This document shows positions 4,709-23,613 of a stretch of DNA of 29,357 nucleotides, piece by piece. The stretch is taken from positions 1 through 29,357 of IMG/VR virus record IMGVR_UViG_3300009786_000054; one strand, 5' to 3'. The stretch's first letter is position 1. Every line of letters begins with the position of its first letter. The position numbers and the translations under genes were made by a program. The notes under the pieces were generated by a model, which was given only the letters and a program-made list of their open reading frames with translations, ran no database searches and was not told the origin of the DNA. This DNA is from a virus.

Positions 4709-6529
4709 CTAAACGTCGTCAACCAGTCCGATCGGCGCTTTGTGCAGGTTCGCCTTACCTGCTGTCGAGTCTGGGACGATGAACGACGTCGGCCGTACCC
4801 CGTAGAAGTCCGAGAATACCTTCAGCTTGGCGAGGTTGGAATTCTGCTGGATTGCCACCGAAGCCACTCTCAGAGGGTGTAGAGACTGCGGAATGGCTAT
4901 CAGGTGCCCTGGGAAGAGGTTCCTGGTCCCCTTCTGCGTCTGCAGGTTGAATGTAGCCCCTCGGCCCAACTCTTCCTGTGCGCGCCTCTCAGCTACCCTG
5001 GCGGCCTCGTCGTAGGATGTGGGGATGTGCATGAGCACCCGCTGAGGTTTTGCACCTAATTGGGTCGCGTCAGGCACTGTGACCGGCATTTCCCTGTAAT
5101 TCCTCGTTCTGTCCGAGAACACGTACATGGGCCGACTGACCTGATTAGGTCGGTGGTTACGCTCGACCTCAGGCTCATCGAGGATTACATCGTTGGAGAC
5201 TGGGTAAATGTTAGTGTTATTCTCCCTTAGGGGGATGAACTTATACTTACCTGTTGTATGATCCCACGGCAAGTACATTCCGATATCCAACAACATATTA
5301 CCGAGGACATCACCACCCGTGGTACTGTCTCTAGCAACGATACTACCAAAGAGATCTTCGTTAACATCGTTAAGTAGGATAGCAACCTGCTCCATTGCCG
5401 CCTGATCGAATTGGTTCACGTCAACACCAAGCCCTTCGGGCCAGGGGCTGAATAGCAGCATGTGAAGGATGTGCATCGCATTGACGCCATCATCGTCAAT
5501 AGGTGGGTCAGGGAATATGGTTCCCGTATTAGTGATATCTGTTAACGGAGTGGTCTTATCGACTGTAATTACAGTAAGTCTTCGTTTAGTTCTATCAGAT
5601 GCGGATACTACTCGTTTTCTGTACTCAACCTTCTCTATCCTGTATAGTTTGTCAGGGTCTGCACCATCCTGATGAATGTGGAAGAAGCTACCTACAAGAA
5701 AGACAGACCCATATTTAGCCTGGGTTAATGGGTCTACACCAGGGAAGATATCCCTATCCTCAAAGGCTTCTGTATACAGTAAGATCTTTCTCCCATCTAT
5801 ACTTGAAGCATTAGTCTCTCGACTTTTAAAGGATAGATGAAAAGTAGGGACAGCTCCGGTTTTACCTGGGCGGTACCACGGGTCGACCGATACGGACGGT
5901 GACGTCCCGTAAGTCAAAGTAGGGTGGTCCGGGAAGCGGGTAACCTCGTACTCCATTGCAGGCCAGGTAGTCTGCGGCCCCAGGCGCTTACGATCCCAGA
6001 GAATATAGCAGTGGAAGGGCCAGCGGCTAGCGATACCTAACCGGGTGGAGTCGTTCCAAGGTGATTTATTGAGCCGCTCATTAACTGGTTGGTCCTCTTC
6101 CCCCCAGTAAATATAGAAGCTTCCTTCCTTACCTAGCTCTATCTTACTTCCTGAGGGGTAGTCCTCTCTTGATATGTTACCATTGAAGATAATCGCACCG
6201 CTCTGATAGATACGGTGAAGGATATGGCACGGCCCCACACCTAAGATATGCCACCCAGCCTGTAAAGCTATCTGCTGGATACCCTCTTCAGTTTTTACCT
6301 GGTCCCCCACCCATGCAATATACGGCCCTACCCTTCGCTTCCCTATGAAGTAGTTAGTAGAGTCACCACGGGTGGCGGTAGATGTGGGCTTATCGTCTTT
6401 TAGAGTGATTTTCTCCTGGTTGTTCTTAGCTAGCGCCCTGGACGCCAATGCGGTTGCCACACCTATAGCAGCTTTTAACGCAAAAGCTAGAAATGCTGCC
6501 CCAGTTATTGCAAAGCTTACGTCGTCCAT
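4709..6529 (-). CDS. tail hub / tail-tip protein (lambda gpJ or GTA gp15-like)
   Basis: 606 aa, the last gene of the tail block. The N-terminus is a hydrophobic Ala-rich segment (FAITGAAFLAFALKAAIGVA). The central region is beta-rich. The segment from about 365 (NAMHILHMLLFSP...LGVDVNQFDQAAMEQVA) through GKYKFIPLRE resembles the phage-tail_3/TipJ-type domain of baseplate hubs. It follows an NlpC/P60 gene and a gpL-like gene, the order found in lambda (L-K-I-J) and in gene transfer agents (DUF2163, peptidase, 'megatron'). It is short compared with gpJ (1132 aa) and lacks long fibronectin-type repeats, perhaps because host recognition is carried by the giant spike gene upstream. Its ATG follows AAGGAATT and overlaps the peptidase stop by 13 bases. 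Confidence 0.8.
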   Translation of the reverse strand: MDDVSFAITGAAFLAFALKAAIGVATALASRALAKNNQEKITLKDDKPTSTATRGDSTNYFIGKRRVGPYIAWVGDQVKTEEGIQQIALQAGWHILGVGPCHILHRIYQSGAIIFNGNISREDYPSGSKIELGKEGSFYIYWGEEDQPVNERLNKSPWNDSTRLGIASRWPFHCYILWDRKRLGPQTTWPAMEYEVTRFPDHPTLTYGTSPSVSVDPWYRPGKTGAVPTFHLSFKSRETNASSIDGRKILLYTEAFEDRDIFPGVDPLTQAKYGSVFLVGSFFHIHQDGADPDKLYRIEKVEYRKRVVSASDRTKRRLTVITVDKTTPLTDITNTGTIFPDPPIDDDGVNAMHILHMLLFSPWPEGLGVDVNQFDQAAMEQVAILLNDVNEDLFGSIVARDSTTGGDVLGNMLLDIGMYLPWDHTTGKYKFIPLRENNTNIYPVSNDVILDEPEVERNHRPNQVSRPMYVFSDRTRNYREMPVTVPDATQLGAKPQRVLMHIPTSYDEAARVAERRAQEELGRGATFNLQTQKGTRNLFPGHLIAIPQSLHPLRVASVAIQQNSNLAKLKVFSDFYGVRPTSFIVPDSTAGKANLHKAPIGLVDDV

Positions 6530-6969
6530 AATTCCTTATCCTTCGGTCGGCAAATAGTAGAGGAGGAGAACCCATCTGAGACGTCTTGGATGTGGCCCTC
6601 GTGGACGCCCTTTTCTTCAGTGGAGTGCCAGACCGTATTATGTTTTGCACCCACCATCACGGCGTGCTTCCCCTCGTTAGAGTCCTCGCTGAAGATTACG
6701 ATATCCCCCGGCTCCAGGAAGACGTGAGGTACGATATCTATTTCGTACTGCCTCATTAGTTTTCTGATAGGTACCCAGGTCAAACCTTCTAACGTTAGAT
6801 TAGGGTCAACGTAGATAGGGTTACCTCTTACAGCGTTCAAAGCATTAAGGATAAACTGTAAGCAGTTAAAATCGTAATACTTTTCCCCTTTAAACCTTTG
6901 CAATGCAGAGTCAAGGGCCTTGCATTGCCGAGGGGGGATAGGTTGCCAGCAGGCGTTAAAGAGTGGCAT
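6517..6969 (-). CDS. NlpC/P60-family tail peptidase (lambda gpK-like)
   Basis: A cysteine peptidase predicted to cleave peptidoglycan peptide bonds or act in tail-tip assembly. In the 150-aa form beginning MPLFNACW, the catalytic Cys is C36 in YYDFNCLQF, the His is H102 in GKHAVMVG, and a third polar residue is H115 in VWHST. The EPGDIVIF strand precedes the His strand as in the family. The chosen ATG (6969) has GAGGGAAG just upstream and overlaps the gpL-like gene by 14 bases; in-frame ATG 6984 or TTG 6990 would add 5 or 7 residues. It lies between the gpL-like and hub genes, the conserved place for the tail-tip peptidase in lambda-like tails and gene transfer agents. Confidence 0.88.
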   Translation of the reverse strand: MPLFNACWQPIPPRQCKALDSALQRFKGEKYYDFNCLQFILNALNAVRGNPIYVDPNLTLEGLTWVPIRKLMRQYEIDIVPHVFLEPGDIVIFSEDSNEGKHAVMVGAKHNTVWHSTEEKGVHEGHIQDVSDGFSSSTICRPKDKELWTT

Positions 6970-7807
6970 CCGGGCTTCCCTCATTCTCAATCAGAGGATA
7001 GTAAGCGGGAGTACCGTAGCCGATCGCGCCGAATTGGCTCTCATTCCCCCACCGCCTACATGATTCAATCGAGAGGTCGCAACCTGACACCAATGTTGCG
7101 GTGACCCCCGTCCAGAGGGAGGGGGCAGGTTCAGTCATGTAGAAGATCCGAGGCGACCCTTTATCCCAGGCACGGATCGTCAAAGCCAACCCGTCAAAGG
7201 AGAAGGTTCCCTTGTTGTACTCAGTCTGAAAAGACTCAGAACTTCCGTTAAATACGGGGTTGGTTGCAGTGATGATCGTATCCCGCTCGATGGTCTCTAC
7301 AACGATAGAGTTGGTCAGAGGGGCGAGATTCTTCAGACAACCCCTGCCACCAAACTTCCAAGGGCACTGGTGAGTACCTACGATACCCAGAGGGATATCT
7401 AGCTCATTTTTGAGCCCCTCACAGGTAATGAGTACTCTGTTGGGGTCACCTCTGTAATTCCGAAAGGACGTGACTACTTTACCCGAGAACCGGGCGTTAG
7501 CCTCGACCACCCCATCGGCGTCCCGTACAAGCTCCGTAATCACCACATTCACGGGAGCATGAGCCTCCCCGAAGGACAAAGGGTGGGTAAATTCGTCGAT
7601 CTTGGTAATCACCTTCAGAGGGGTTTCTTCGAGCCCCGAATCAGATACCGGGTACTGAATCTCTATGAAGGGTTCAGGGGCGAATACGCTAACAAAGTCC
7701 ACCTCCTCATTAGAGTCGGTAAGCCTGTGGAACTTAACAGGGTTCCCCCAAGTGAATTCCACTAAGGTAACTACGTCTTTGATTGGTTGTGCTGTGGGAC
7801 TACTCAC
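6956..7807 (-). CDS. minor tail protein, lambda gpL / DUF2163-BR0599-like, likely Fe-S
   Basis: 283 aa. The C-terminal segment GCDLSIESCRRWGNESQFG matches the Phage_BR0599/DUF2163 signature (GCD..F.TC..RFGN..NF.G). Cysteines C148, C157, C243 and C250 form C-x8-C and C-x6-C pairs, the arrangement of the four cysteines that hold an iron-sulfur cluster in lambda gpL. C157 sits in a KFGGRGC loop. The protein joins the tail tube to the hub at the tail tip. The start is GTG at 7807 with GAGG nine bases upstream, overlapping the spike gene's stop (GTGAGTAG). Its neighbours, spike upstream and NlpC/P60 downstream, agree with this role. Confidence 0.87.
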   Translation of the reverse strand: MSSPTAQPIKDVVTLVEFTWGNPVKFHRLTDSNEEVDFVSVFAPEPFIEIQYPVSDSGLEETPLKVITKIDEFTHPLSFGEAHAPVNVVITELVRDADGVVEANARFSGKVVTSFRNYRGDPNRVLITCEGLKNELDIPLGIVGTHQCPWKFGGRGCLKNLAPLTNSIVVETIERDTIITATNPVFNGSSESFQTEYNKGTFSFDGLALTIRAWDKGSPRIFYMTEPAPSLWTGVTATLVSGCDLSIESCRRWGNESQFGAIGYGTPAYYPLIENEGSPDATL

Positions 7808-10800
7808 GCCAGATTACCTCTGCCCATAGTTTAGTTACCCTTACATTGTCCGTGCTGAATGAGAGGTATGCGCCTGGGTCTTGTAAGATAACCTCAGCCC
7901 ACATTTTAGATACATTGAGTCTATCTACCGTAGGGCTAGGTAACTGGACTTCAACATCCTTCCCCTCTTTAAGCTCTACCATAGATAGGTTGAAGGAGCA
8001 CTTATCATCCGTGATCCAGTGTTCCCCCAAGGTGTCGAGGACAAACCTACAGTAGTGGCCGGAAGTGATCGCAGTGGCGGTACCGGGGGCAGTGTCGAAC
8101 GTCTCTACCGTATGGATTTCAGTGTTGCCACCGGAGTTCTCAAAGTGATCTATCTCGTAAAACTTCTGAATACCTTCAGCACCTTGGAATACAGTAATGT
8201 GATTGAAAAGCTGAGTGTAGGTATCAAGGTCTCCCTCCAGTTCACCGCTGTTAGTAATGACAGTACCTGACGGAGCTATGTTAGGATGTAAGTTGAATAC
8301 AGAGTTAGGGGCAGCGACCCAGAAGGGGTATGCCCTCCCCTTACGAGATTCAAAGAAGTGGATTACCTTAAAGATACTGGCCCTATCATACTCCTCTGCA
8401 CCTATAGATATGTGTACCTGAGGGGTGTCCCCCCGGACATTAGCAACGATAGACCTTCCTACTGTGTATGTCTTACCGCTTCTCTTGAATGAGAAGTTTT
8501 GGACAGATCTCCAGTTGGGCTCCAGGGGGAAGATAGGATCGCCCTTGTAGACGTTCTCCACCCCATAGGGCAGGGAGTCTACAGTAGCTCCAGGTAAGGT
8601 AGAAGCTTCCTGCACCTCATTGAAGGTTACAGTTATATCTGTAACCTGATCGTTGAGAAAGTTCGTAGGTAGGTTTAGATCTACTTCAGTATCAATCGCA
8701 GGGAAGACGAAAGAAGACACCATCGGGTAAGACTTCACCAAAGGTGTCTCAAGCGTTAGCTGAATAGGTGAGACTCCGTTGGGGGTTAATTGGTGGATTT
8801 CAAAGTCACCCGTGGCGAAGTTGTGGATAAACACCCTTTTGGTACTGGCGAATCTGAAATCTTTTGTGACCACCGGGATTGTGAAGAGGGTTGCGTTAAC
8901 ATCGGCCGACAGAGGGGCCTGATCCGAGAGGAGAGGTACCGGCTGCCGCTCCGATGTGTGCCTCGCCATGATATTGACGATGGAGGCTGTATCTTCGGTT
9001 GTGAGCCCCCTCAGGTGCGTCGTCATGCTCCTGTATGGATGGATTCGGAGGATACGTCGTTCCTCACTCAGCGTGATAGCCTCTGTGACGTCCGTAGAGT
9101 ACTTCGTTTGGACGGAAACGTCCGAACCCCAGTGATGTATCAGGATTGGGGCCAGGATCGTAGGAAGGGGCCGTACAGGGGCTACAGGAGGGTTGGGGGC
9201 GCTGAGGTTCTCAATAGCCGTATCCATTGAGGAAGTAACTATCCCGTAAGCCTCTACCGAGGAGGCTTGCGCGCTTTTTACCCCTTGGAGGCATTCGAGA
9301 GGTGAGGGGAGGGGATTATTCACCGGGGCAAACGACCCGGCTTCGGAGGCTCCGATATCCTCGCGCACGCCAACAAAGGCAGGGTTACCGTAGAAATCAG
9401 GGGTTTGGCCACCGTTGTACCCGGTGTTAATACATGGAGAAGTCGTATTCAGGAAGTAAATCTCGTTTTCAAGATCTACTACGTTGGGGTAGGTAGCAAT
9501 GGAGTTGGCTTCTTCCGCAGCTACGGCAGTCTGGTAATCAGCAAATTCGTTTTGCTCAAATAAGGTCTTCGGCCCAAGACTGTCATAGAAGATCAAGTCA
9601 GCGGAAGGTAAGCCACCCTCTGTGTAATAGCAGTTACGGTCAGTGTTGATATTGGCTGCGGAGGCACCCGAACCTACACTAAAGCAAATACCTTTAGTAA
9701 GATCGTATAGGTTACCTTGGTGAGCAATAGTCTCCCCAGCCATACCCTCCTCTAAGCGAAGGCAAACAGAGCCAGGCTTTGCTACCGGATCATAGGTTCC
9801 GCTAAAGGTATTACGTCGTATCTGGGAGACGGTTGCAGTGGATATACGCAAATTGATAGCGTATTTCGTAGTATCAGAGGGCTTACCGAGGGTATTGAAG
9901 ATGATAGAACCGTCACTACCATTAAGGGAATCAGGTGTAATGATTAGAGCATTCCAAGCATCAGAAATGTGGCAACGGTGTATTTTGTAGTTAGCACACT
10001 CTTTAAGTTGGACACCATCGGAGGAATCATCGATATTGAAGTCGGTTAAATGGTTATCGAGGATCTCTATGTTATTTGAATTAAAAGCATTGATACCATC
10101 AGCACAGTTGTAAATAGTCAGATTCTTGGCGATAGTGTTGTTTGCAATATGTATCTGTAATCCAGATCCACCGGGAACTACATTATCGTAGTATTTCCCA
10201 CCGTCAACTACGTTATCATCACCTGTACGGACGGTAATTCCATGGCGGCCGTTATTGTGAGAATCACAATTCAGGGCCAGTCCTCTCGCACCGTCCATCC
10301 AGATACCGTCATTCTCCCCACCACCGCTTGCGCCAGTGACTTCAATATTTTCTACGGTGCAATCATCTTTAACATTGAAGTGGACACCTATGTTTTGCCC
10401 TACGGCGTTTATAATAGGTTTACCGGCATTAGGATCGCCATAGTCTTTAATGGTTACATTATTTACTAGAAATTTGATTTGCTCAGCGAAGGTAGCTCCA
10501 CGTTTGAGGTAAACGGTATCCCCCGTGAATACGCTTCCAGAGTGAGCATTATACGTTTTCCATGGGGTTGTCTGCTCACCGTTGCCAAGGTCGTCTGCAA
10601 CCGTTGAGTCGATGTAGTGCTCAGTGCCGACCGGGGTTGTGGGGCTGTCAGACCAGGAGATTGTCCCGGTGGGTGAGTCGACAGATTGTATATCGTAAGG
10701 TACACCGTTAATTGTCAGGGAATTGTATGAACTAGGGAGACGATGCGTCATCACAGTCGCATCTTGGATATCCTCCCCCGTAACTATGATCGAAGTACCG

Positions 10801-13370
10801 CTATATTCTACTTCGATGATCTTAGTTTTTACAGAGGTTTGAATATAGGTATCGGCCCCGAACTTAAGTCTAGTGCCTTCGGTAAGGGAACATCTAATAG
10901 GGTTGACAAAACCTGGAGCACGTTCGATTATCCCTGCAAAGCCGTTGATCTCGTATCCCGCAGCGAAGAAAGATCCACCAACGTCATAACCATGATGATT
11001 GAGGATATATACTTCTGATGAGTTATCTAAATACGTTGCCTCAATGGCTGAGATATCATCATTATCAATGATTTCAGCTACATCAGGCCTCATGCCGTAC
11101 CCTGAAGCAGTAGTTGGGTACACGTAAGCGATAAATCGCATTTTACCGCCACCAGGCATGGATTTAGAGACCCGCCAGACGTAGGCGGTATCATCATCAT
11201 CCATGTAAGCACCTAGGCCGCTGTTAGTGTATGACGGATCTAACTCATAGGCCCCGTCCGTTGGCTTGACGAACTTTACTGCGGTAACCAGGCTATCATC
11301 AGACTTCTTGGAGCGTACCCACCTATCACTATCGAAGTCTGATGAATCAGGGGTGTCTTGGCTGAGGAAGTTCCATTCAGGGGCAATCGTCTCCTGAGCG
11401 TCGATAGTGTCTATGACAACTACCGGCCCCTTATTTCTAAGGAACATCCAGTGCCTGTTGACCTCATCAAGATTCAAGTCCGGGGTCACTGTCAGTTCAG
11501 GATGCACCCTGGTCGGGTAGAGGTTGGCCAGTTCTGTCCTGGCAGCCATATGATTGTTGGACGCGGAGAAGACATTAATCCCACCGTTGAGCCAACGACC
11601 ACCCAGAAAGTCAGCACGGTCATCAGCTTTGGAGCCCCCCAACTTATTCATCTGAAGCTGAGGTTTAGCTGGATTAGCATTTAAGTCATTTGATCCAGTC
11701 TGACCGACCCTATCTCCATCTTTGTTGAATGTCAGAGTATTAGACACCCAAGTTGATCTTGCCCACCCATCGGGAGTACCTGACGAATTATTCGTCAGGT
11801 GATTCATTACTCTCCATTCGTCGTAACCCCCTCCATACAAGGACCACATACCTACCTGCATTCTTACATGATGATATGAGTCCCGCATATCAAGAGGATA
11901 TTGCGCGTTAGATGGGGGTACTGCACTGTTGAAAGGTTGGGAAGACCATTCACTGTCAGATCCGTTTGAGTCCCAAGTAGGATGCGTAAGATTAGCATGG
12001 ATGTATTGCCCCCTACCTAAATGATGCCACCCTGAGGCGGCGAAGTTCCACCCTGACGCATCTTGCTCGAACCTCTTACGGGCAAAGATAAAATCTTTAT
12101 CAGGTTCGCAGTAGTGGGTGGGCCATCCTGAGGCTTCGGGGGAAATAGCAGGTACGGTATAGTCATGCAGAAGAATTTCCCAGATCAGTACGTTTTCCCA
12201 GTCTGCGCTTCCTCTCCTAGGGGGCAAGGTGTAGGATAATTGGGTTAGCCTATCGCCCAACCATTGGGCCTCCCCATCCCCCCAGTATTTAGCTGCAAAC
12301 CTATAAGATGACATATTAGAATGTTTTCTAGAATTGGCACTAGAAACATCCCCATAAGGTATGAGGGGCTCATTTACCCGTATCGTACTTGGCCTAGCTG
12401 TGTACGTTTGGAAGATATGTAAGCCCCTTGCATGGCCCCACCCACTAAGCATATCTTGGCCAAAGGCCCTAGCGTTACAATGATGGGCATAGTACCAATT
12501 AGAAAAAGTCTCTAAATAGTTCGAGCCTTCCCAATAGCACCCTGAATTAGTCCACATAGATCTCTGTGCCCTGAGAGCTATGTCATGGATTATATCCTTT
12601 TGAGCATCTTGACTATTTATGGAGACCCCGTGAGTATTAACTAAACGGGTTCTGTCATCTGGGGTAGCTGTAATGGCTGAAATGCCGGTCCCCATACCCA
12701 TAACCGAAGGATCATTAAAGTGGTTTTGGGAATACTTCGTAGCCCAAGTGTTGCCCCTATAGACCTCAGGGTGATCTATCTGTACTGTGCGGATAAGTTC
12801 CACAGCATCCCATATCTTTTTCTGGATATTAGATAGGGACATATATCCATTGTGTTGATCGTTGGCTTCAATGAATGGGTACAGCATATCAAATGCCATA
12901 GCACAGCGCATTGTAATAAGGCCGAATAGTCGATCTACCTCTCCCGCATCTCTCTCCCACCCAGTACCTTCAAAACTTAGTTTGCACTGTTTGCTAAGGG
13001 CGGAATAAGCCTTTACCCCGAAAGCACCTGCGGCAGTAGTCCTATTTAGGTAATCAGCCAGACCAAAGTCGTTGTTCTCTACGGCCCACATTAAGGAGAG
13101 GATACATAGGAATTCGACACCTGGGCTAGACCCTACAGAGGTTGTCTCAGCCTTTAGAGCCTCATATATGAGATAACTATTGGTTGTATTATCTTGGCAC
13201 TTCGCCTTAATACCGCCTGCACCGTACATCTCATCTTCGGTATACATCATAAAAGGATGTACCGTAGGCTGAGACCAACCGCCGATAGCAGGGAAACCGG
13301 TATAATCTGTATTTATAGCTGTAAAGTACGGCTCAGATTCCCAGGGGTAGACTGTATTAGGATAGGCCAT
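7800..13370 (-). CDS. giant tail-spike fusion: heparinase II/III-like lyase + beta-helix + tail-structural domain
   Basis: 1856 aa in four regions. (1) Residues 1-460: helical, (alpha/alpha)-toroid-like, with a CYWEGSNYLETF motif (278-289) like the WEGxxY motif of heparinase II/III and related lyases, and an Asn/His-rich YAHHCNARAF (294-303). (2) About 460-900: beta-sandwich, typical as the second lyase domain. (3) About 915-1345: right-handed beta-helix with repeated N/D-G-I turns, ending REDIGASE, as many secreted beta-helix proteins do. (4) 1356-1395: three 'IE' repeats, then a tail-structural part (TKYSTDVTEAI, EERRILR, FFESRKGRAYPFW) resembling proteins encoded just before gpL/DUF2163 in tail operons. 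It probably degrades or binds host capsule or lipopolysaccharide. Lyase activity is inferred; no catalytic set is proven. Confidence 0.82.
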   Translation of the reverse strand: MAYPNTVYPWESEPYFTAINTDYTGFPAIGGWSQPTVHPFMMYTEDEMYGAGGIKAKCQDNTTNSYLIYEALKAETTSVGSSPGVEFLCILSLMWAVENNDFGLADYLNRTTAAGAFGVKAYSALSKQCKLSFEGTGWERDAGEVDRLFGLITMRCAMAFDMLYPFIEANDQHNGYMSLSNIQKKIWDAVELIRTVQIDHPEVYRGNTWATKYSQNHFNDPSVMGMGTGISAITATPDDRTRLVNTHGVSINSQDAQKDIIHDIALRAQRSMWTNSGCYWEGSNYLETFSNWYYAHHCNARAFGQDMLSGWGHARGLHIFQTYTARPSTIRVNEPLIPYGDVSSANSRKHSNMSSYRFAAKYWGDGEAQWLGDRLTQLSYTLPPRRGSADWENVLIWEILLHDYTVPAISPEASGWPTHYCEPDKDFIFARKRFEQDASGWNFAASGWHHLGRGQYIHANLTHPTWDSNGSDSEWSSQPFNSAVPPSNAQYPLDMRDSYHHVRMQVGMWSLYGGGYDEWRVMNHLTNNSSGTPDGWARSTWVSNTLTFNKDGDRVGQTGSNDLNANPAKPQLQMNKLGGSKADDRADFLGGRWLNGGINVFSASNNHMAARTELANLYPTRVHPELTVTPDLNLDEVNRHWMFLRNKGPVVVIDTIDAQETIAPEWNFLSQDTPDSSDFDSDRWVRSKKSDDSLVTAVKFVKPTDGAYELDPSYTNSGLGAYMDDDDTAYVWRVSKSMPGGGKMRFIAYVYPTTASGYGMRPDVAEIIDNDDISAIEATYLDNSSEVYILNHHGYDVGGSFFAAGYEINGFAGIIERAPGFVNPIRCSLTEGTRLKFGADTYIQTSVKTKIIEVEYSGTSIIVTGEDIQDATVMTHRLPSSYNSLTINGVPYDIQSVDSPTGTISWSDSPTTPVGTEHYIDSTVADDLGNGEQTTPWKTYNAHSGSVFTGDTVYLKRGATFAEQIKFLVNNVTIKDYGDPNAGKPIINAVGQNIGVHFNVKDDCTVENIEVTGASGGGENDGIWMDGARGLALNCDSHNNGRHGITVRTGDDNVVDGGKYYDNVVPGGSGLQIHIANNTIAKNLTIYNCADGINAFNSNNIEILDNHLTDFNIDDSSDGVQLKECANYKIHRCHISDAWNALIITPDSLNGSDGSIIFNTLGKPSDTTKYAINLRISTATVSQIRRNTFSGTYDPVAKPGSVCLRLEEGMAGETIAHQGNLYDLTKGICFSVGSGASAANINTDRNCYYTEGGLPSADLIFYDSLGPKTLFEQNEFADYQTAVAAEEANSIATYPNVVDLENEIYFLNTTSPCINTGYNGGQTPDFYGNPAFVGVREDIGASEAGSFAPVNNPLPSPLECLQGVKSAQASSVEAYGIVTSSMDTAIENLSAPNPPVAPVRPLPTILAPILIHHWGSDVSVQTKYSTDVTEAITLSEERRILRIHPYRSMTTHLRGLTTEDTASIVNIMARHTSERQPVPLLSDQAPLSADVNATLFTIPVVTKDFRFASTKRVFIHNFATGDFEIHQLTPNGVSPIQLTLETPLVKSYPMVSSFVFPAIDTEVDLNLPTNFLNDQVTDITVTFNEVQEASTLPGATVDSLPYGVENVYKGDPIFPLEPNWRSVQNFSFKRSGKTYTVGRSIVANVRGDTPQVHISIGAEEYDRASIFKVIHFFESRKGRAYPFWVAAPNSVFNLHPNIAPSGTVITNSGELEGDLDTYTQLFNHITVFQGAEGIQKFYEIDHFENSGGNTEIHTVETFDTAPGTATAITSGHYCRFVLDTLGEHWITDDKCSFNLSMVELKEGKDVEVQLPSPTVDRLNVSKMWAEVILQDPGAYLSFSTDNVRVTKLWAEVIWRE
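9186..9305 (-). repeat. three 'IE' repeat units joining spike and tail-structural domain
   Basis: Residues 1356-1395 of the spike: PLECLQGVKSAQAS, SVEAYGIVTSSMD, TAIENLSAPNPPVAP. Each unit has Ile/Val/Leu-Glu near its start with a 13-15 residue period. The same unit is arrayed in the 470-aa virion protein at 24927-26339. Confidence 0.7.
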
Positions 13371-16300
13371 TAGAAGGGTTGCAACTCCATACCGAATTCA
13401 GTATCAGGGAGGTCGACAATAGTCCAAGCAAGTGCAGTGACGGGATTAACCTCCAGCAACTCTGAAGTCACCTCGTACCCTGATGTTACTTCATTGTCTA
13501 TAGACATCTCATTAGGTGACGTGGCGTAAGTGTCCCCTGTCACACGTCTGAACGCAGGCTTAATAACTCGCGTGCTCGCGCCCGTGTCTTTGGAGCCAGC
13601 TACGTTTATTTCGACCCCTAAGACTGAGGTATACGGAGGTGACACTACAGCGGGGGACGACATAGTGTACAACTCGTGATCGTTGCCCGTATTGGACGTG
13701 ACCTTGGTTAAGTCTCCGTCAATACCTCCTGTCCCTGATTCCGTGTGCTGGGTCCAGTTGGGGGAGCCGTCAGTAGCTATCCACTCATTATGAGTTACTT
13801 CGTCAGCGGAATTTTCAATCACCTTGATCCCCTCGACCACGATAGGCCCGAGGGCGCCATCGAAACCGGAGGAGGTTGACCCGGAGAAGTCGTTGATGTA
13901 CAGATCGTCTACGGCAATGACCGGGTTACCTGAGTTGTAACCCCAATGGATCTTCCCTTGATCGGCTACAGCATCTATCTGGTTGGTCTCAATGGTATTG
14001 AATGAGTAGAGAGATACCCCGTTGACCCATACTTCGACAACACCGGAGCCTGCTAAATCTAAAATGATTTTAGATTCAATATACATCCAGGCACCGTTAC
14101 CGAAGGGGATGTAGTCAGTTAGAGGGTCATAACCTCCACATGCTACTTCCACTGGAGTAAGGGTATCGTTAATACCTGAGTAAAATTTGAAGGTCACCTC
14201 ATCTACTTTCAAGGCTTCATTGTAAGTCATGTACAGCCCCCCTACGAAGACTCCATTGCTCCATAGGCTGTGGATGAGCTTCTTATTATCAGTCCAGTTG
14301 AAGGTGAGGTCGGCAAGATAGATAGCGCTTCCGAAGTACCATCTGTTTATCGGTGTGACCACCTTAGACGAGATTACATAATCCCCTGACGTGGCGGCCC
14401 TACTTGCGTAACCAGATCCTCTCCTACCTGTAATGTATTCAGGTGGGCTGGGCTCGCTGTAGCCCCCATGTTTGAGACTTAGGGCGGTTGGGGATCTTAT
14501 ATTATCGAATCCCTCTACTAGTCTATTAACCAATTGGAGCACCCCTATTAGAATTAACATAGCCTGTATCTCGGCTGAGTTATCCTTAATCATTTCCATG
14601 AACGGCCTACGCCCCTGCGCCAGCAGGCGGTCATAGGTCTGTTCGTCAGAGACTACAACAGCTCGACCAACTCCGCCACCACTGCCACCACCTCCGGTGT
14701 CACCAGGGCCGGAGATCGAACCGCCCGTAGCATATCCGACCTTGGGCGTGCGGCCTGATCTTTTCTTGATCGAAGAGGCTCCTGCCAGCGCGCGGGCCTG
14801 CATAGGATCGAGGGAGAGGGTGCGAACAGCCTCCATGAACTGCGTCCCGTAAGTCTGCACAGCGTTGAGGGGCTGCATAAACTCCCCTGGCTGCGCCCAG
14901 ATAGGCACCGTGTCCTTCGGGTGGACCCCAGGAGGCGGCTTAGGTCGCCCACCGGAATGAAGACCCTGAGCGCGGGTGTAGTGGGCTGGGTGGGCAGCTC
15001 CTTTCGTGGGGATTTTTCCGCCCCTGTGCTGGGATACTTGCCCATTGAAATTTAGAGACCCTACCCCTGTATAACCCCCACTACCTCCGCTTATAAGACC
15101 TGATATCCCCCCTTGCACACTGGCTAATAGTGCCTTGGAGATAGTGCTAGTAAGGGATTGGAAGATATCCTTTGAGATCTGTCTGAAGAGGGATGCGAAA
15201 GCTTCTCGTATACTAAAGCCCTTATCAGTGGGGTCTAAAGCCTCAACAATGGCTTCCCCGAGAATATCTGTAGCCCCATCAAAGCCCTTGACTACTGCGT
15301 CATTTATAGACTGTGCTATCTCCTGATTTATGAACAGGGAGATATCAGTTATAGTACCTACTAGGTTTTCAATACTTAGAAGCAGCCCCGAGCCGATCGG
15401 ATTAGTGGCAGCAAGCTCCCGGATAGCTAGAACTCTCTCATATTGATCCTCCAGAACCTTTAACTCAACTACCCTTAGTTTAATATTGTTGCTAACCGTT
15501 TTTGTGCTTTCATTTGTGTCTTCGATAAGTTGTCGCTTAGCTAAGATCTCACCAGTTAATCTGTTCTCCTCCTCAGTCCCCGCTTGCACCTGAGCCTTTT
15601 GGGCCAACAATGAATTTAATTCCGATCCCATAGTTGCAAGCAGTTCGTTGGCGACCTCTTGATTTTTCCTATCTTCAATCCCTAGCTCAACTATCTCAAC
15701 GTCAATCTCCAGGATATTAGCCTTGGCAGTCAAAAGCTCTTTCTGGATATTCACTATACTATTCTCAGCCTGCACACGTAATCTAGTGGATTTTACAGCC
15801 GCTTCTGATACTCTCCGCTCGGCCTCAAGCTCGAATTTAGTATTTTGAAGTACTTGACGTAATTGAAGATCCCTATTTGCAATATGGCTGTCAGAGATGT
15901 TTTGCCGTTGCCTGGCAATCTCTTCTAAACCTTCGTTTGTAGCCTTCAACGTACCTTCAGTGGCGATCAGATCTTCAACAAGGGCTACAGCCCTTTCACT
16001 AGACGTGGCCCCTGTGGCGAGCAGGGCCTTTTCAAAATCCCTCATCTCATCCTGAGCAGATTTCAACTCCGCTTGGATAGTGCTGGCCACATCCTTTCCC
16101 CTTGCTACAAAGCTCTCAGCTTGCTTTATAGAATAAGGGTCACCCTCCCGTTGTACCTTCTTCAACTCACGTTCACGTTTTACGACTTGCTCTAATGCAG
16201 ATACTCTTTCCTTATCCCGTTCAGCAATTACTTTAGTTAATCTTATAATGTTTCGCAGAGAGTCGGAAGGGTCTTCTGCGGTAAGTTTCGTAGCGGAGTT

Positions 16301-19159
16301 ATTTAACTCTTCGATATCCTCAAGTAATCTTTTCTGTCTGTTAATCAGGTTATTACGTGCGTCTAATGCCGTGGCTCTCTTCCTATCAGCCGTCTCAGCC
16401 GCATCTCGGACCTTGATGGTAGTGTCCTTAATCACGTCAAGTAGGCCCTTGAGTGAATCGGAGGAGCCAATGGAGATAGCTGAGAAGCGCAGTTCAGTTA
16501 CAAGCTTCCTGGCCTCGCTGGCCATATCTATGATAGTGCTCTTACCGTCCCGTAGATCCTCAACCATTGATGTGATAATGGGGTCAAGGTTGGAAAGCTC
16601 CTCAACCATCGACCCTATCTCATTGGTTGCGTCGGCAACCGCGTCAGGCAAACCTTCCGAAAACTCGCCAATCAACTCATCAACAAGACTGAGCCCTTCC
16701 CTCACCAGTCCGTCTAACCCACCTTCCCCGGCTGCCTGCTGCTCCCAAATCCTATCCCAGTCCTCTGCTGCAGTTTCACCGACACCTACTATATCATCAG
16801 CGATTTTTGTTGCACTATCGAAGGCACCGCCAAGAGCTCCCCCACCTCCAGGGGCTACGACTCCAATATCATTGGCGTAGCCCCTGCTCATTATGTCGGC
16901 AGTCTTCTCCATTTGCGCCAGTTCTTTAGATATCTTATCTAACCCTAGAGCCTTTGTGATAATCCTACCTAACCCTGTAACCATACTAGCTACTCTAGTT
17001 ATAGCGGAGAGGACGAAATCTATAGCTCCCTGTATGATACCATTTATAGTGCCTGCAATACCTGTGAGGACGGAACTGGCTAAATTCCACACAGCCTTGA
17101 TCCCAAGGAGAATCAGTCGGATCAGTGTACCTAGCCCTATCTCAAAGCCGAACAGCGCTCCGGTGATCTTGAGGATTTCAGATACGATGATTCCGATCAG
17201 TATGACAACGGCACCTACTGGTGTGACGAAGAGGAGTATGAACCTGTAGATTGAACCAAGGGGCTTAATGAGGGATTGTGTCAATCCTACGATAATTGAG
17301 AGAGGTAGTATGAGGGACTTTATAAGTTGTGATATGGTGAACAGCACTATCCTCAGTGCAACGGCCGCACCTAATGTGGTAGTAAAGAGGGTCACCATCC
17401 GTTGCACTAATGAAGGATCAGGGAACAACTTATCGTAGGCTTCCCTGATCTTCGGGCCAAAGGAGGCAATGACCCGCGCCCAGCGGGCGGCTTCCCTGAA
17501 GCCTTTTACCAGGATGCTGATTGAGACGATAGCGGCAGACAGGGCAGTCAGAAGCCCAGTCTCAACGGCCTTGAGTACCTCAAAGATATCTGACGCGGTG
17601 AACTGCTTAGCGAACTGCTTGGACTTATCTACCAGACCTACGAGAATACGAGAGATGACCCTGAGAAGTGCAACAGTCGTGGGGCTCGGTGCCAGGTTAC
17701 CTGATATGTCCGTATCCAGGATGAGTGCATTGATCTGTTGTAGGGATTCTTTGATGCTCTCGAAGAAGGGTCGCAGTCCGGAACCCACGACCAGGGAGAT
17801 AGCGTCTTGCAGGTTGGTGAGGATAGTATTGAAGTTCAGTACTGACTTCTCGCCCGCGAGGGTGAACGCCTTGAACCTATCCTGAAGGAATCCGTACAGG
17901 TTACCTAGTTCCTTGGCGTTGCGGATATCCTCGTTGGTGATCCCGAGAGCAGCGGCAATCCTCGTGGTCCGGAGCTGGATAGTTCCAGCCAGCAGCGACC
18001 GAATCTCTTCCGCAAGCTGATTCTGCGCCAGACCAATAGCCGTGGCAGCCTGGGAGATCTGGACGGTGAACGCCCTGATCTCGTCGATGTTTAATCCTGC
18101 TTGGAATCCAGGGGCAAGAGCGACCTGGAAGGTATCTACGAGATCCTTGAACGTAGCAGACGTCTGGAGGGCCTCTACGCGCAGCAACTGGATCTGCTTA
18201 CGAGAAGCCCGTGTAGCCAGCTCCAGGGCCTGAGCAGGGGTCACAGCGCCTCCGAAGGCGTCTCTAACGTCCCCCACGGCAGTCAGCAGCGAGGCGATAC
18301 CCAGGGTCGCTTGCTCGATGTTGGCATTGAAGGTGACCGCCTCCCTGACAAGCCCTACAAAGCCCTGGGTGAGCCGCCGCACGATAGTAAAGGCTGCGAG
18401 GATAGAGATCAGGCGACGGAACGTGAAGCTGATACGGTTGGCCCTGAGGGCTGTAGCGTCGAGCCCAGTCCGCAAGGCTGTGAGGGCGTTGTTGGTCTGA
18501 AGGATAGTCTTCTTGGTCTGAGCTGCGTTACTCGCCGTCGAGGAGGTTCTGCTTTTCCGCTTCCCGCCGGCAGCAGGGGTCTGGCCGCTTGCGGCTGCAA
18601 AGACCGGACTGAGCTTCCGGATTGCCTTGAGGTTCCGAATCTCGCGCTCTAGTTGCTTGTTCTTTATACGGATACTTGTGATCTGTACCCGGTTGGCTTT
18701 GATGAATTCCTTGAAGGATTGGGTAGCCTTCTTCGCGGCAGAGAGTCTTTGAGCCTCCCTATCAATATCACCCTTGGTTAGCTCTCTAAGCTTTTGAACA
18801 TGCTTGAGCCTGGCTCGTGTAGCGGCAGTCAACCTACCTACAGCATTGGCTTGGGCGTTTATATGCCTGACTTTAGTTGCTAGTTTTGTATTAGTATCGG
18901 CACCAATGGATGTGCTGATCTGCTTGATAGCAGTAGCTTGGATCTTGAGGTTCTTGGAGATATTGGACGTCGCACTTTGGAACGCCTTGAAGTTGCTTCG
19001 TATCTCCTTTTGCTGAGTTGCAAAGGTGATAACCTCTCCACGGAAAGCGGCGAAGGCTTCTTTGTTGAGAGTCAACTCATCTCTGAAGGCTTTCGTACCC
19101 CCAGAGAATTTGTCCTCAACCTCTATCGTATACTTAGCGCCGCCAATGTTGGTGACCAT
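13370..19159 (-). CDS. tape measure protein with extra C-terminal beta-sandwich domains
   Basis: 1929 aa. This protein sets tail length and is ejected with DNA. Residues 1-230 are coiled coil. About 245-490 resembles the TMP_2 domain (EAVTFNANIEQATLGIASLL; later FNTILTNLQDAIS). About 590-705 holds several hydrophobic segments, and 890-1260 is long coiled coil. Near 1410-1430 is the classic tape-measure ending (KDTVPIWAQPGEFM). It does not stop there: after a Gly-rich linker (GDTGGGGSGGGVG) there are about 400 more residues, including a LamG/concanavalin-like part (about 1605-1760, VVEVWVNGVSLYSF then VDDLYINDF) and a second beta part ending in LPDTEFGMELQPF. Such domains usually occur on surface proteins. 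The stop is one base before the spike's start codon region, so the two genes are adjacent. Confidence 0.93.
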   Translation of the reverse strand: MVTNIGGAKYTIEVEDKFSGGTKAFRDELTLNKEAFAAFRGEVITFATQQKEIRSNFKAFQSATSNISKNLKIQATAIKQISTSIGADTNTKLATKVRHINAQANAVGRLTAATRARLKHVQKLRELTKGDIDREAQRLSAAKKATQSFKEFIKANRVQITSIRIKNKQLEREIRNLKAIRKLSPVFAAASGQTPAAGGKRKSRTSSTASNAAQTKKTILQTNNALTALRTGLDATALRANRISFTFRRLISILAAFTIVRRLTQGFVGLVREAVTFNANIEQATLGIASLLTAVGDVRDAFGGAVTPAQALELATRASRKQIQLLRVEALQTSATFKDLVDTFQVALAPGFQAGLNIDEIRAFTVQISQAATAIGLAQNQLAEEIRSLLAGTIQLRTTRIAAALGITNEDIRNAKELGNLYGFLQDRFKAFTLAGEKSVLNFNTILTNLQDAISLVVGSGLRPFFESIKESLQQINALILDTDISGNLAPSPTTVALLRVISRILVGLVDKSKQFAKQFTASDIFEVLKAVETGLLTALSAAIVSISILVKGFREAARWARVIASFGPKIREAYDKLFPDPSLVQRMVTLFTTTLGAAVALRIVLFTISQLIKSLILPLSIIVGLTQSLIKPLGSIYRFILLFVTPVGAVVILIGIIVSEILKITGALFGFEIGLGTLIRLILLGIKAVWNLASSVLTGIAGTINGIIQGAIDFVLSAITRVASMVTGLGRIITKALGLDKISKELAQMEKTADIMSRGYANDIGVVAPGGGGALGGAFDSATKIADDIVGVGETAAEDWDRIWEQQAAGEGGLDGLVREGLSLVDELIGEFSEGLPDAVADATNEIGSMVEELSNLDPIITSMVEDLRDGKSTIIDMASEARKLVTELRFSAISIGSSDSLKGLLDVIKDTTIKVRDAAETADRKRATALDARNNLINRQKRLLEDIEELNNSATKLTAEDPSDSLRNIIRLTKVIAERDKERVSALEQVVKRERELKKVQREGDPYSIKQAESFVARGKDVASTIQAELKSAQDEMRDFEKALLATGATSSERAVALVEDLIATEGTLKATNEGLEEIARQRQNISDSHIANRDLQLRQVLQNTKFELEAERRVSEAAVKSTRLRVQAENSIVNIQKELLTAKANILEIDVEIVELGIEDRKNQEVANELLATMGSELNSLLAQKAQVQAGTEEENRLTGEILAKRQLIEDTNESTKTVSNNIKLRVVELKVLEDQYERVLAIRELAATNPIGSGLLLSIENLVGTITDISLFINQEIAQSINDAVVKGFDGATDILGEAIVEALDPTDKGFSIREAFASLFRQISKDIFQSLTSTISKALLASVQGGISGLISGGSGGYTGVGSLNFNGQVSQHRGGKIPTKGAAHPAHYTRAQGLHSGGRPKPPPGVHPKDTVPIWAQPGEFMQPLNAVQTYGTQFMEAVRTLSLDPMQARALAGASSIKKRSGRTPKVGYATGGSISGPGDTGGGGSGGGVGRAVVVSDEQTYDRLLAQGRRPFMEMIKDNSAEIQAMLILIGVLQLVNRLVEGFDNIRSPTALSLKHGGYSEPSPPEYITGRRGSGYASRAATSGDYVISSKVVTPINRWYFGSAIYLADLTFNWTDNKKLIHSLWSNGVFVGGLYMTYNEALKVDEVTFKFYSGINDTLTPVEVACGGYDPLTDYIPFGNGAWMYIESKIILDLAGSGVVEVWVNGVSLYSFNTIETNQIDAVADQGKIHWGYNSGNPVIAVDDLYINDFSGSTSSGFDGALGPIVVEGIKVIENSADEVTHNEWIATDGSPNWTQHTESGTGGIDGDLTKVTSNTGNDHELYTMSSPAVVSPPYTSVLGVEINVAGSKDTGASTRVIKPAFRRVTGDTYATSPNEMSIDNEVTSGYEVTSELLEVNPVTALAWTIVDLPDTEFGMELQPF

Positions 19160-19160
19160 C

Positions 19161-19565
19161 TTAGACCCCTGTACCTAAATCCGATAAAGCCTTAGCTATA
19201 CCCGAAGCTCCCTTTTCGTTCACGCCACCCAAGATCTCGTCAAGTTGTTTTATATGTGCTGTAAACTGCTTCTCGTCTGCGTGCATGACTGCTCTCAGGG
19301 AGTACAGGGCCAGCTTCTGTTCTTGGTACTTAGCTTTCCTTATCGTGCAGTATAAGTCATTCAGACTGGTAATAGGGATGTCTAAGACGTAATCGAGTCC
19401 GTACCCATTTCCGACGCAGGTTGATATAATTCCGGAGAGGGTTTCCCATCCTGATTGCTGGGGCTCTGCGTTGGCTCCTTTTCGCTTTCCTTTTCTTCTG
19501 GCATCCGCTTTAGGGCTTCCTGCGCCATCAAGGATACCCTTTCCCCCAAAGGGCCGAGCACCTCT
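19161..19565 (-). CDS. tail assembly chaperone -1 frameshift extension (gpT-like)
   Basis: The -1 frame relative to the gpG-like gene is open from 19565 down to a TAA at 19161, just before the tape-measure ATG. It has no good start of its own, yet it encodes protein-like sequence: WETLSGIISTCVGNGYGLDY, then IPITSLNDLYCTIRKAKYQE and a helical end. This is the usual place of the gpT part of lambda gpG-T, made by about one ribosome in many slipping back one base. Slippage at 19544-19550 would give 164 residues of gpG plus 127 from this frame (291 aa). The G-T fusion binds the tape measure and recruits tube protein during tail assembly. Confidence 0.8.
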   Translation of the reverse strand, partial: RGARPFGGKGILDGAGSPKADARRKGKRKGANAEPQQSGWETLSGIISTCVGNGYGLDYVLDIPITSLNDLYCTIRKAKYQEQKLALYSLRAVMHADEKQFTAHIKQLDEILGGVNEKGASGIAKALSDLGTGV

Positions 19566-20035
19566 TTATTCGCATGGTAGACGCCTGTGAGCAGCTCTCG
19601 AAGGGCAATGACATCCAGACCATCCATGAGGGTCGTAACCTCATCGTCTTTGGCGTCCTTGTCCTGCCGCATGGAATTCAGGATCAGCTTGCCAACGATC
19701 AGCTTGTTATCAGCGGAGAGGAAGGTGTCTACGATCTCTACGATCGCTCGTTGTCTCTCTCGGATACGGAAGGTCGCAAGCGCCTCAGAGACCGGCTCAA
19801 TGTGGGTCTCCTGCATGACGTCTTTGGTATTCTTGTTCTCGAATTCCTTTATGGTGCGACCGGCGTCATTCGTATCTCTAGTAAATAAAACAGCCAATGG
19901 CCGGGTAATATCCTTGCCAATGGCTTTCATCTGGAAGAGTAGTCGTGCAGTGATTGGGTAGAAGTCAATCTCTCTTCCCCGGATGACGCTTGGGTACGCC
20001 TTCGGAGAAAAGGAGAGGGTTTCTTTCCAACTCAT
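19382..20035 (-). CDS. tail assembly chaperone (gpG-like)
   Basis: 217 aa. Lies between tail tube and tape measure, the conserved site of the tail chaperone pair. The N-terminal 165 residues look folded (DFYPITARLLFQMKAIGKD; helical DGLDVIALRELLTGVYHANKE). The last 45 residues are a Glu/Lys/Ser/Pro-rich linker (EEKESEKEPTQSPSNQDGK), typical just before the frameshift extension. A slippery T-TTG-GGG occurs at codons 163-164. It reads from an ATG close behind the terminator at 20063-20096, so it depends on read-through from the tail-tube gene or on an unseen promoter. Confidence 0.85.
   Translation of the reverse strand: MSWKETLSFSPKAYPSVIRGREIDFYPITARLLFQMKAIGKDITRPLAVLFTRDTNDAGRTIKEFENKNTKDVMQETHIEPVSEALATFRIRERQRAIVEIVDTFLSADNKLIVGKLILNSMRQDKDAKDDEVTTLMDGLDVIALRELLTGVYHANKEVLGPLGERVSLMAQEALKRMPEEKESEKEPTQSPSNQDGKPSPELYQPASEMGTDSITS
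19544..19550 (-). promoter_or_regulatory. candidate -1 slippery heptamer TTTGGGG
   Basis: In the gpG reading frame the bases fall as T TTG GGG (codons 163 and 164), satisfying the X-XXY-YYZ pattern for simultaneous -1 slippage. It lies just inside the interval where the -1 frame is open. Y = G is less slippery than A or T, so the site is a candidate, not certain. Confidence 0.5.
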
Positions 20036-20062
20036 AGGTTACCGCCTTTTGAGTAAGAGATT

Positions 20063-20096
20063 AAAAAGCCGTGGGCGAACAGTTACGCCCACGGCT
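20063..20096 (-). terminator. intrinsic terminator after the tail tube gene
   Basis: AGCCGTGGGCG, 8-base loop, CGCCCACGGCT: an 11-bp stem, followed leftward by TTTTTAA. It lies 20 bases past the tail tube stop and before the chaperone gene, so it should reduce, not abolish, downstream transcription. Confidence 0.87.
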
Positions 20097-20115
20097 CGAT
20101 CATGGAGGATTGGGT

Positions 20116-21021
20116 TTACGCGAATGTGTTCGGCACGGAGATAGTCAAAGTCTTGGACGTCGAATCCGCCGTCTCGTTGGCTTCGGCAACTCCGGTGAAC
20201 TGCATGGTCGTCCAGTCGTCAGAGATCAGACTGAACTCACCCTCAGCCTTGAGGGAGACCTGGTGGAACTGGAATTCATACTTACGGTCACTATCCGCCG
20301 GATTCTCCGGAATGAACTTCAGCGCACCAGCAATGTTGGTGGAGGTAAGGGCCTGCACAACATCCACATGGGTAGATACTGTACCTGTACCGGCCGTGAT
20401 ATGGACGGCATAGTCATCATTTGCAGGGATTTTGGCAGTACCATCGATGATGAAGATCATCCCCATCTTCCTGTCTACGGTGAAATCTACACCTTCAACA
20501 GCAGTGGTATCCGCAGGAGTCGCGAGCGTATCCTTGATAGTGAAAACGGAATCAGCCCGGATATCGTAGATACGTTCAGCATGGAAATCAGAGGCCGCAG
20601 GTGCGGTTTCTGGATTCGCATAAAGGTCGTACCATCTTCCCTGTTCAGTGACAGACAGGTTGAACTCAGTAAGGGCAGATCCGTCCGTCGTCTGCGCTTC
20701 CCAGGTGTCGAAACCAGTAGCCTTCGTAGTGGTCTGACCTGAGACGAACAGGGCAAGGTTGTCGAAGTTGATCTCATCAAGACTCAGAGAGAGGGTAATC
20801 TTCTGAGAGATGATAACTTCCTTATCCACGACCTTCAGACCACCACGAGACGAAAGGTGCTCAAGGGTTTCGGAATCAGTGGCAAAGGAAAATTCAGGAG
20901 CGTTCCCCAGGTCTCGATAAGCCTGAGGCTTGCCGAGGAGCAGGGGGGCAAAGTAGACCTTACCTCTTCCGAGGATATAGTCAGAGGTATTTGGGGTTCC
21001 AGTAGTATTGATTCCTGGCAT
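20116..21021 (-). CDS. major tail tube protein
   Basis: 301 aa. It begins MPGINTTGTPNTSDYILGRG and continues KVYFAPL..., the common N-terminus of siphovirus tube proteins ('sdY.lGrG.vyf'). The body is beta-rich, as expected for a tube monomer, with an acidic and Thr/Ala-rich central part that may include an added Ig-like decoration. It is expected to form stacked hexameric rings around the tape measure. The ATG follows AGAGGAG. A terminator lies directly downstream, and the chaperone pair and tape measure follow, as in lambda V-G-T-H. Length is slightly above the 250-aa average of the family. Confidence 0.88.
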   Translation of the reverse strand: MPGINTTGTPNTSDYILGRGKVYFAPLLLGKPQAYRDLGNAPEFSFATDSETLEHLSSRGGLKVVDKEVIISQKITLSLSLDEINFDNLALFVSGQTTTKATGFDTWEAQTTDGSALTEFNLSVTEQGRWYDLYANPETAPAASDFHAERIYDIRADSVFTIKDTLATPADTTAVEGVDFTVDRKMGMIFIIDGTAKIPANDDYAVHITAGTGTVSTHVDVVQALTSTNIAGALKFIPENPADSDRKYEFQFHQVSLKAEGEFSLISDDWTTMQFTGVAEANETADSTSKTLTISVPNTFA

Positions 21022-21033
21022 CGAAAGGCTCCT

Positions 21034-21468
21034 CTAAATAGGATATTCGTTTGCTTCTATAGTGTACGAAACAGAAGTCCCAGTAGCCCCTTCTTGGATT
21101 ACCGGGTGTTGGATCTCTGCTGATATCAAGTTGATCTCAGTTTGAGGCAGGTCAGTAGTTTTGGATAACAGTAGGGGAGGATCGGTTAGACTCTTTTCAA
21201 AAGACTCCAATGATACCTCCACAGAGAAAGCCAATCTAAATTCAAACCGCCAAAGCTTTCTTTCTCTTAGCCTGCCCCTCCTGTTTCTCTCCGGTTTATC
21301 GAATTCGCTCCCCACCTCGTTCGCATAAGCTACTGTAGGGTGGACCTTTTGAGTAGATACAGAAGCCTCGTTATTGTTCTGACTGTAAGTAATCTTAGGA
21401 AACTTATGATTATAAGCCAGCCCAGTAAGGGCGTTCTGTACTCTAGTTTTATTGTTGGTTAGGTCCAT
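21034..21468 (-). CDS. putative tail completion/terminator protein, 144 aa
   Basis: Position immediately upstream of the tail tube gene is that of lambda gpU or the tail terminator and head-tail joining proteins. The sequence (DLTNNKTRVQNALTGLAYNH...FRLAFSVEVSLESFEKSL) is beta-alpha mixed with a basic RNRRGRLRERK patch near residues 62-72. I do not recognise the family with certainty, so the role is inferred from order. It overlaps the preceding gene by 10 bases. Confidence 0.62.
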   Translation of the reverse strand: MDLTNNKTRVQNALTGLAYNHKFPKITYSQNNNEASVSTQKVHPTVAYANEVGSEFDKPERNRRGRLRERKLWRFEFRLAFSVEVSLESFEKSLTDPPLLLSKTTDLPQTEINLISAEIQHPVIQEGATGTSVSYTIEANEYPI

Positions 21469-21995
21469 AGTGCCTTAACTGATTTCGGCCAAGTTGTAGC
21501 ACCTGGAGGGAGAGGCTTGATATCCGGCTCCAAGATAGAAGACCTGACAGCAGACTCATCCCCGATAGAAGACTCCCCAGAAAGCAAACTTAAATCCATT
21601 TCGATGCTGATCGTCAGTAGTTCAGTCTCTTTGGCAGTATCTGACGAAGCAAACTTTCGTAGAAAAGGATCTTCATTCCAAGCCTCTACCCCGCCGTTAC
21701 CTTGCTCCATGAGCAGGTGGTTGTAGTACTGAAGAAGCTCTCGCTTGACGATCTTCAGTTCCACATCCTCAGCAATGGCACGCAGGTACCCGTCGCTGGT
21801 GGTCGGGTTGTCTGTAGAGGAGTAAGAGAGAAGAAGGGTTATCGTGGCAGATCCCAGACGTCTAAAGAGGGTAGTTCGTGCTACCTTGATAGATACGTCC
21901 AGTTGAGCCGCCCTACTCTCATTGAGGTCAATACCATTCAACCCCAGGGTTTCTTCTAACTCACCTTTAATGGGAATGAAGAGAGGCTTAATCAT
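21459..21995 (-). CDS. putative head-tail connector or minor tail protein, 178 aa
   Basis: 178 aa, mixed alpha-beta, with a central helical segment (EDVELKIVKRELLQYYNHLL) followed by QGNGGVEAWNEDPFLRKF, and a Pro-rich C-terminus (LPPGATTWPKSVKALW). No diagnostic motif is seen. It sits between the capsid and tail tube genes, where connector, stopper and tail-completion proteins are encoded, and overlaps both neighbours slightly, so co-translation is likely. Confidence 0.62.
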   Translation of the reverse strand: MIKPLFIPIKGELEETLGLNGIDLNESRAAQLDVSIKVARTTLFRRLGSATITLLLSYSSTDNPTTSDGYLRAIAEDVELKIVKRELLQYYNHLLMEQGNGGVEAWNEDPFLRKFASSDTAKETELLTISIEMDLSLLSGESSIGDESAVRSSILEPDIKPLPPGATTWPKSVKALWT

Positions 21996-22387: not shown

Positions 22388-22400
22388 AAAAAGTACTCCC

Positions 22401-22441
22401 AAAAGAAATAAGAAAGGAGGGGAGGGTGCGACCCTCCCCTC
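22401..22441 (-). terminator. intrinsic terminator after the major capsid gene
   Basis: GAGGGGAGGGT, loop of 3, ACCCTCCCCTC: an 11-bp stem at 22417-22441, followed leftward by a pyrimidine-rich CTTTCTTATTTCTTTT. It lies 24 bases past the capsid stop. The interrupted T-run suggests partial termination. Confidence 0.78.
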
Positions 22442-22464
22442 TCGCGAGGCTTGCACGGAAGGAT

Positions 22465-23520: not shown

Positions 23521-23563
23521 GGTTAGCTTCCTTTCAGAAAAATTAAATCTTTTTCACGAGTTT

Positions 23564-23591: not shown

Positions 23592-23613
23592 ATACAAAGT
23601 TTGTGCAGATCTA

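Follow-up and report, generated by a model that had tools for sequence, protein, structure and literature searches.

A giant distal tail protein joined to a predicted heparinase II/III-like lyase and a right-handed beta-helix

What is the giant protein encoded in the tail operon of the virus recorded as IMGVR_UViG_3300009786_000054 in IMG/VR, and what might it do at the tail tip? The window analyzed here is the whole stretch of 29,357 bases. A sequence-only reading had described the protein as a tail spike in which a heparinase II/III-like lyase and a beta-helix are joined to a tail-structural domain. We examined the gene and its three parts in turn.

A single gene between the tape-measure and hub genes

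The minus strand of the window from 7800 to 13370 holds a single frame of 1856 codons, with an ATG start and zero internal stops. The ATG shares a base with the stop codon of the tape-measure gene (TAATG), and the stop codon of the giant gene runs into the start of the tail gene that follows. Since both ends of the frame overlap neighboring genes, nothing points to two genes in this interval, and the sequence-only reading was right to treat it as one gene without a frame break. The minus-strand tail operon runs in the order major tail protein, small gene, tape measure, giant gene, gpL/hub-like gene, small gene and Phage-tail_3 hub, which places the giant gene between the tape-measure and hub genes, as for a distal tail protein of the Chi/JBD30 type.

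20116-21021, minus strand: major tail protein, part of the minus-strand tail operon
13370..19159, minus strand: tape-measure gene, directly upstream, 1929 aa (phrog_167 and phrog_10093)
7800..13370, minus strand: whole gene, giant distal tail protein, 1856 aa (uninterrupted frame with overlaps on both sides)
6956..7807, minus strand: next gene, hub/gpL-like protein (phrog_778; Phage_BR0599)
4709..6529, minus strand: Phage-tail_3 hub/"megatron"-type protein (PF13550, 4e-6; phrog_1101, 7e-10)

The hub/gpL-like product weakly matches the R4C hub protein 8gtc_P (E 0.29). The C-terminal ~290 residues of the tape measure (13373-14242, minus strand) resemble one or two extra beta-rich domains, with no match in Pfam, and its last 110 residues match phrog_6368 weakly (E 0.0024). 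The portal gene (28376-29357) lies on the plus strand, opposite to the head protease gene (27128-28279) and the other genes of the head and tail operon; the terminase gene (769-2241) is also on the plus strand, a layout unusual for a siphophage. Another contig of this virus (L008, IMGVR_UViG_3300009706_000177) covers window positions 18827-29355 with 99.93% identity over 10.5 kb, runs ~660 bases beyond the right end and stops short of the giant gene.

The C-terminal part is of the Chi/JBD30 type

7803..9170, minus strand: distal tail protein (Dit) with two tandem Dit-core-like repeats, residues 1401-1856 (phrog_1082, Chi profile match and model)

Residues 1411-1839 match phrog_1082, "tail assembly protein" (E 1.1e-24), and Dit-core-like repeats start near residues 1411 and 1618. 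A tblastn search located the same domain, at 21-25% identity, in 15 records from Casjensviridae and other phages; the genes that carry it there encode 391-838 aa and follow the tape-measure region, ahead of the next tail gene. The domain stands alone at this place in phiWae15 and S-ESS1 (391-397 aa), in agreement with the earlier statement that the C-terminal domain also occurs by itself. A seven-member family profile, the phage protein included, retrieved the distal tail proteins of Chi (8vjh_B, E 1.9e-144) and JBD30 (8rk3, 1.6e-99); the former value measures the family and not the phage protein alone, because the profile includes close Chi relatives. Residues 1401-1856 were modeled from an alignment with five relatives that contained Chi-like sequences; the model reached a pLDDT of 57 and a pTM of 0.52. 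This moderate-confidence model was superimposed on 8vjh_B with a Z score of 26.8 (384 aligned, rmsd 6.2) and on 8rk3_D with a Z score of 26.5; the next, unrelated rows were small barrels with Z scores of ~11 over 75 residues.

The Dit of JBD30 forms a trimer in which every chain contributes two Dit cores; its N-terminal domains wind around the fibers and extend laterally from the tail (PMC11445458). The two repeats of the phage C terminus fit this two-core plan. Like the Chi and JBD30 proteins, the last 456 residues belong to the same family, with two Dit cores and inserted small barrels, and the gene likewise follows the tape-measure gene or its neighbors. The stretch before the cores sets the proteins apart: ~140-175 residues in Chi and JBD30 as opposed to ~1400, with the lyase and beta-helix, here. 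Across the family this stretch is absent from S-ESS1 and phiWae15, ~170 residues long in JC01, Recoleta and Chi, and 1400 in our protein. In the Chi-like Dits of JC01 and Recoleta (L006:5485-5960 and L007:5494-5970), the ~170-residue N-terminal domain resembles a carbohydrate-binding beta-sandwich and has no Pfam match.

By homology and modeling, residues 1401-1856 are a Dit of the phage Chi/JBD30 type and not a generic spike domain. The earlier notion of a tail-structural domain was correct in that this is a tail protein, and can now be made more specific (phrog_1082, 8vjh_B); the label "tail spike" was wrong, the C-terminal domain being a distal tail protein.

Residues 60 to 860 match the heparinase II/III-like lyases

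12171..13193, minus strand: alpha/alpha-toroid half of the heparinase II/III-like lyase domain, approximately residues 60-400 (eg2 profile)
10791..12098, minus strand: antiparallel beta-sandwich half of the lyase domain, approximately residues 425-860 (eg2 profile; hallmark residues R639, D654 and Y618)

Standard library profiles miss this domain. Residues 1-905 had no match in single-sequence searches of Pfam, PHROGs, NCBIfam and PDB, and none of PF07940, PF16889 and PF16332 matched at the curated Pfam cut-off. Direct searches of phages, plasmids, IMG/VR and species genomes returned nothing, and no match to the lyase domain was found among 50,697 phage records. In 388 genomes of one phylum, residues 1-905 had three matches, all at chance level and two of them GH16-like. 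The patterns YWEGxxYLxxF, YWEGxNYL and GxYWEGSxYL, when sought in IMG/VR and genomes, occurred only in frames unrelated to lyases.

Heparinase II/III family proteins were therefore compared as profiles, after being gathered from bacterial genomes via PF07940 loci. In many of them DGxxxEGxxYxxY is preceded by an NH or NNW motif; the phage counterparts are SGCYWEGSNYL and YSQNHF. Against a profile of 9 bacterial heparinase II/III proteins, residues 1-905 scored 19.8 bits, with shuffled sequences at <= -0.1. Against a 42-protein profile (eg2) the score was 46.5 bits (E 4.4e-14, set of 420), whereas the best of ~415 unrelated ORFs reached 5.5 bits and 500 shuffles peaked at 6.1. Since the 42 proteins had been picked for the EG motif, we masked the motif and scored again: without CYWEGSNY, 33.7 bits (E 3.2e-10) remained, and 31.1 bits when the NH motif was masked as well. 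The toroid half alone (residues 1-420) scored 27.4 bits (E 2.6e-8) and the sandwich half alone (residues 421-905) 21.8 bits (E 1.3e-6) on the eg2 profile, so that the two halves match the family independently and in family order. An hhalign comparison with 23 family members gave a probability of 92% and an E value of 5.6e-7 over residues 82-674 at 17% identity, with a raw score of 62 as opposed to <=21.8 for 61 unrelated frames.

The same family alignment retrieved structures of PL35 (best), PL15, PL17, PL39, PL21 and PL12; the solved enzymes closest to the lyase domain are PL35, then PL15, PL17 and PL21. The sequence-only reading, which had guessed a heparinase II/III-like lyase by eye from one motif, is borne out by these profile scores, as is the beta-sandwich that it placed after the helical domain. 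Among the polysaccharide lyase families it suggested, PL15, PL17 and PL21 rank after PL35, but PL8 is not among the closest.

A single-sequence AlphaFold model of residues 1-905 had a pLDDT of 31 and was left out of the fold search; the helices in this poor model span 65-198, 237-269 and 354-379. Four heparinase probes matched only unannotated fecal scaffolds plus one bacterial record. Heparinase relatives in four unannotated "Bacteriophage sp." fecal records were not counted as phage lyases, because the two inspected (L154 and L155) look like pieces of bacterial chromosome by their ORFs.

Profile homology places residues ~60-860 in the heparinase II/III-like lyase superfamily.

Predicted active site

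12723..12725, minus strand: Asn216 (YSQNHF), aligned in the A2 profile alignment with the carboxylate-neutralizing Asn192 of PL35 GAGase II
12513..12548, minus strand: motif NSGCYWEGSNYL, residues 275-286, with Tyr285 aligned with the catalytic Tyr246 of GAGase II
11868..11870, minus strand: His501, first candidate for the general-base His401 (hhalign, MAFFT local/global)
11997-11999, minus strand: His458, alternative general-base candidate (MAFFT genafpair, 42-sequence profile eg2.hmm)

The lyase motif noticed earlier in the N-terminal domain, CYWEGSNYLETF, was located at residues 278-289. In GAGase II of PL35, the triad Asn192/Tyr246/His401 is essential by mutagenesis, Asn192 neutralizes the carboxylate, and alanine mutants of the metal ligands His403, Asp405, Asp421 and His457 lose all or most activity (PMC12088678). 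Asn216 and Tyr285 of the phage protein align with Asn192 and Tyr246, and Glu281, Gly282, Asp341, Tyr618, Arg639 and Asp654 match family-invariant positions. Aligners disagree on the general-base His of the beta-domain (HxHxD), placing it at H501 or at H458; neither placement has the second His or the Asp. The four metal ligands have no counterpart in the phage domain, where Arg503, Gln505, a gap and Ser543 are aligned with them, and the alternative alignment likewise puts non-ligand residues at these positions. Because the metal ligands are absent, we keep the domain in the superfamily but do not file it under PL35. Its lyase activity is a prediction from homology.

A bacterial-type beta-helix

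9336..10628, minus strand: right-handed beta-helix ending in a choice-of-anchor-Q-like tail, approximately residues 915-1345 (PF13229, NF041518)

When residues 906-1400 were searched as an isolated piece, PF13229 matched residues 995-1143 with 62.3 bits (cut-off 25.9, E 5.4e-17), in keeping with the right-handed beta-helix proposed earlier for about 915-1345. The module begins as bacterial proteins of the pectate-lyase type do and has a choice-of-anchor-Q-type end at residues 1307-1344 (NF041518, E 6.7e-4). Its relatives are bacterial, with E values of up to 6.9e-7 per genome, and one of them (L140) resembles lacto-N-biosidase structures. No phage relative was found among the 50,697 phage records, and none in PDB. 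We classify residues ~915-1345, from these matches, as a bacterial-type right-handed beta-helix, which might supply binding or a second cut.

The third codon positions of the enzyme modules (9171-13370, minus strand) have a GC content (GC3) of 0.46, as opposed to 0.56 for the Dit part and a range of 0.53-0.64 across six other structural genes. This difference fits a cassette acquired from bacteria.

Proposed working and alternatives

Computation establishes the homology of all three parts, the single gene and the conserved Asn and Tyr; from these we infer trimeric arms, their activity, their substrate and a role in infection. The Dit ring would join the tail tube to the baseplate, its N terminus extended by the lyase and beta-helix modules. 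By homology to JBD30 gp49, three copies would form the ring, with each N-terminal arm pointing sideways from the tail tip. The arms would most likely bind a surface polysaccharide of the host. The lyase would cut a uronate-containing polymer by beta-elimination, with Asn216 neutralizing the carboxylate and Tyr285 and a His serving as acid and base; the beta-helix would add binding or a second cut. Once the polysaccharide is cleared, the tail tip could reach the outer membrane. We consider it fairly probable that the protein is a giant "evolved Dit" whose three arms, each with the lyase and the beta-helix, cut or bind polysaccharide on the host surface. The fuller version, in which the ring carries three active, metal-independent heparinase II/III-fold lyase arms plus a second beta-helix enzyme and so forms a two-enzyme depolymerase tail tip, is possible but doubtful.

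The lyase domain could instead be catalytically dead and serve as a lectin-like binding arm, with the beta-helix doing the cutting or neither module cutting at all. The missing metal ligands, essential in GAGase II, and the ambiguous position of the catalytic His speak for this, as does the fact that Dit decorations are usually binding-only, as in evolved Dits with carbohydrate-binding modules. However, Asn216, Tyr285, Glu281, Asp341 and other invariant toroid residues are kept despite 17% identity (hhalign), which would not be expected of a freely drifting site. Against the main reading, no close relative of the whole 1856-aa protein was found in which selection on the active-site residues could show. 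On balance, we rate a dead lyase as unlikely.

Two further explanations concern whether the enzyme part belongs to the ring at all. Cleavage during assembly might release the enzyme part, or leave it attached separately, while a normal Dit stays in the ring. The low-complexity, Pro-rich stretch between the beta-helix and the Dit (about 1346-1400) would suit such a cut, but profile-library searches recognized no protease or self-cleavage module in the protein, and the Chi and JBD30 Dits retain their N-terminal domains in solved structures; we regard this course of events as quite improbable. It is harder still to believe that the gene is an assembly chimera in which a bacterial polysaccharide gene was joined to a phage gene. 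Such a chimera could account for the GC3 of the enzyme part, which differs from the rest of the operon, and L008, the sole other contig of this virus, does not extend to the Dit gene. However, it would need two junctions, both in frame, and a start codon overlapping the tape-measure stop, without a leader peptide, and the Dit core begins exactly where the N-terminal arm begins in the relatives.

Comparison with known systems

Phage beta-helix enzymes are common, and Dits enlarged by carbohydrate modules are known. The literature search turned up no Dit that combines a lyase with a beta-helix. As in the evolved Dits of Gram-positive phages, a Dit has been enlarged by carbohydrate-directed modules; those carry binding modules, whereas the additions here are enzyme-like and N-terminal on a Chi-type double Dit. 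The protein shares a right-handed beta-helix with the tailspike depolymerases of phages, but its helix is of the choice-of-anchor-Q type, internal and anchored on a Dit.

The lyase domain belongs to the same toroid plus beta-sandwich family as PL35 (GAGase II, 8khv; GAGase VII, 8khw) and the PL15 alginate lyase Atu3025 (3a0o), and keeps the catalytic Asn and Tyr and most invariant residues. Unlike these enzymes, to which it is only remotely similar, it does not keep the metal ligands, has no signal peptide and is part of a virion protein. Phage alpha/alpha-toroid depolymerases are rare but already known: DepoScope assigned 11 of 984 predicted phage depolymerases to this fold (PMC11326577). Our domain falls in the same broad fold class, but a heparinase or a Dit fusion is not mentioned in that paper (PMC11326577).

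Implications

Depolymerases are usually pictured as separate spikes or fibers with one beta-helix. Here the predicted enzyme cargo is part of the tail-tip ring itself, and one module comes from a lyase class that is seldom seen in virions and is invisible to standard profiles. This arrangement suggests that Dit N termini are slots for enzyme cassettes and that current annotation under-detects toroid-type phage lyases, and it makes the protein a candidate source of new uronate-polymer lyases. Probably, the virus is equipped with three enzyme arms for cutting its way through the surface coat of its host.
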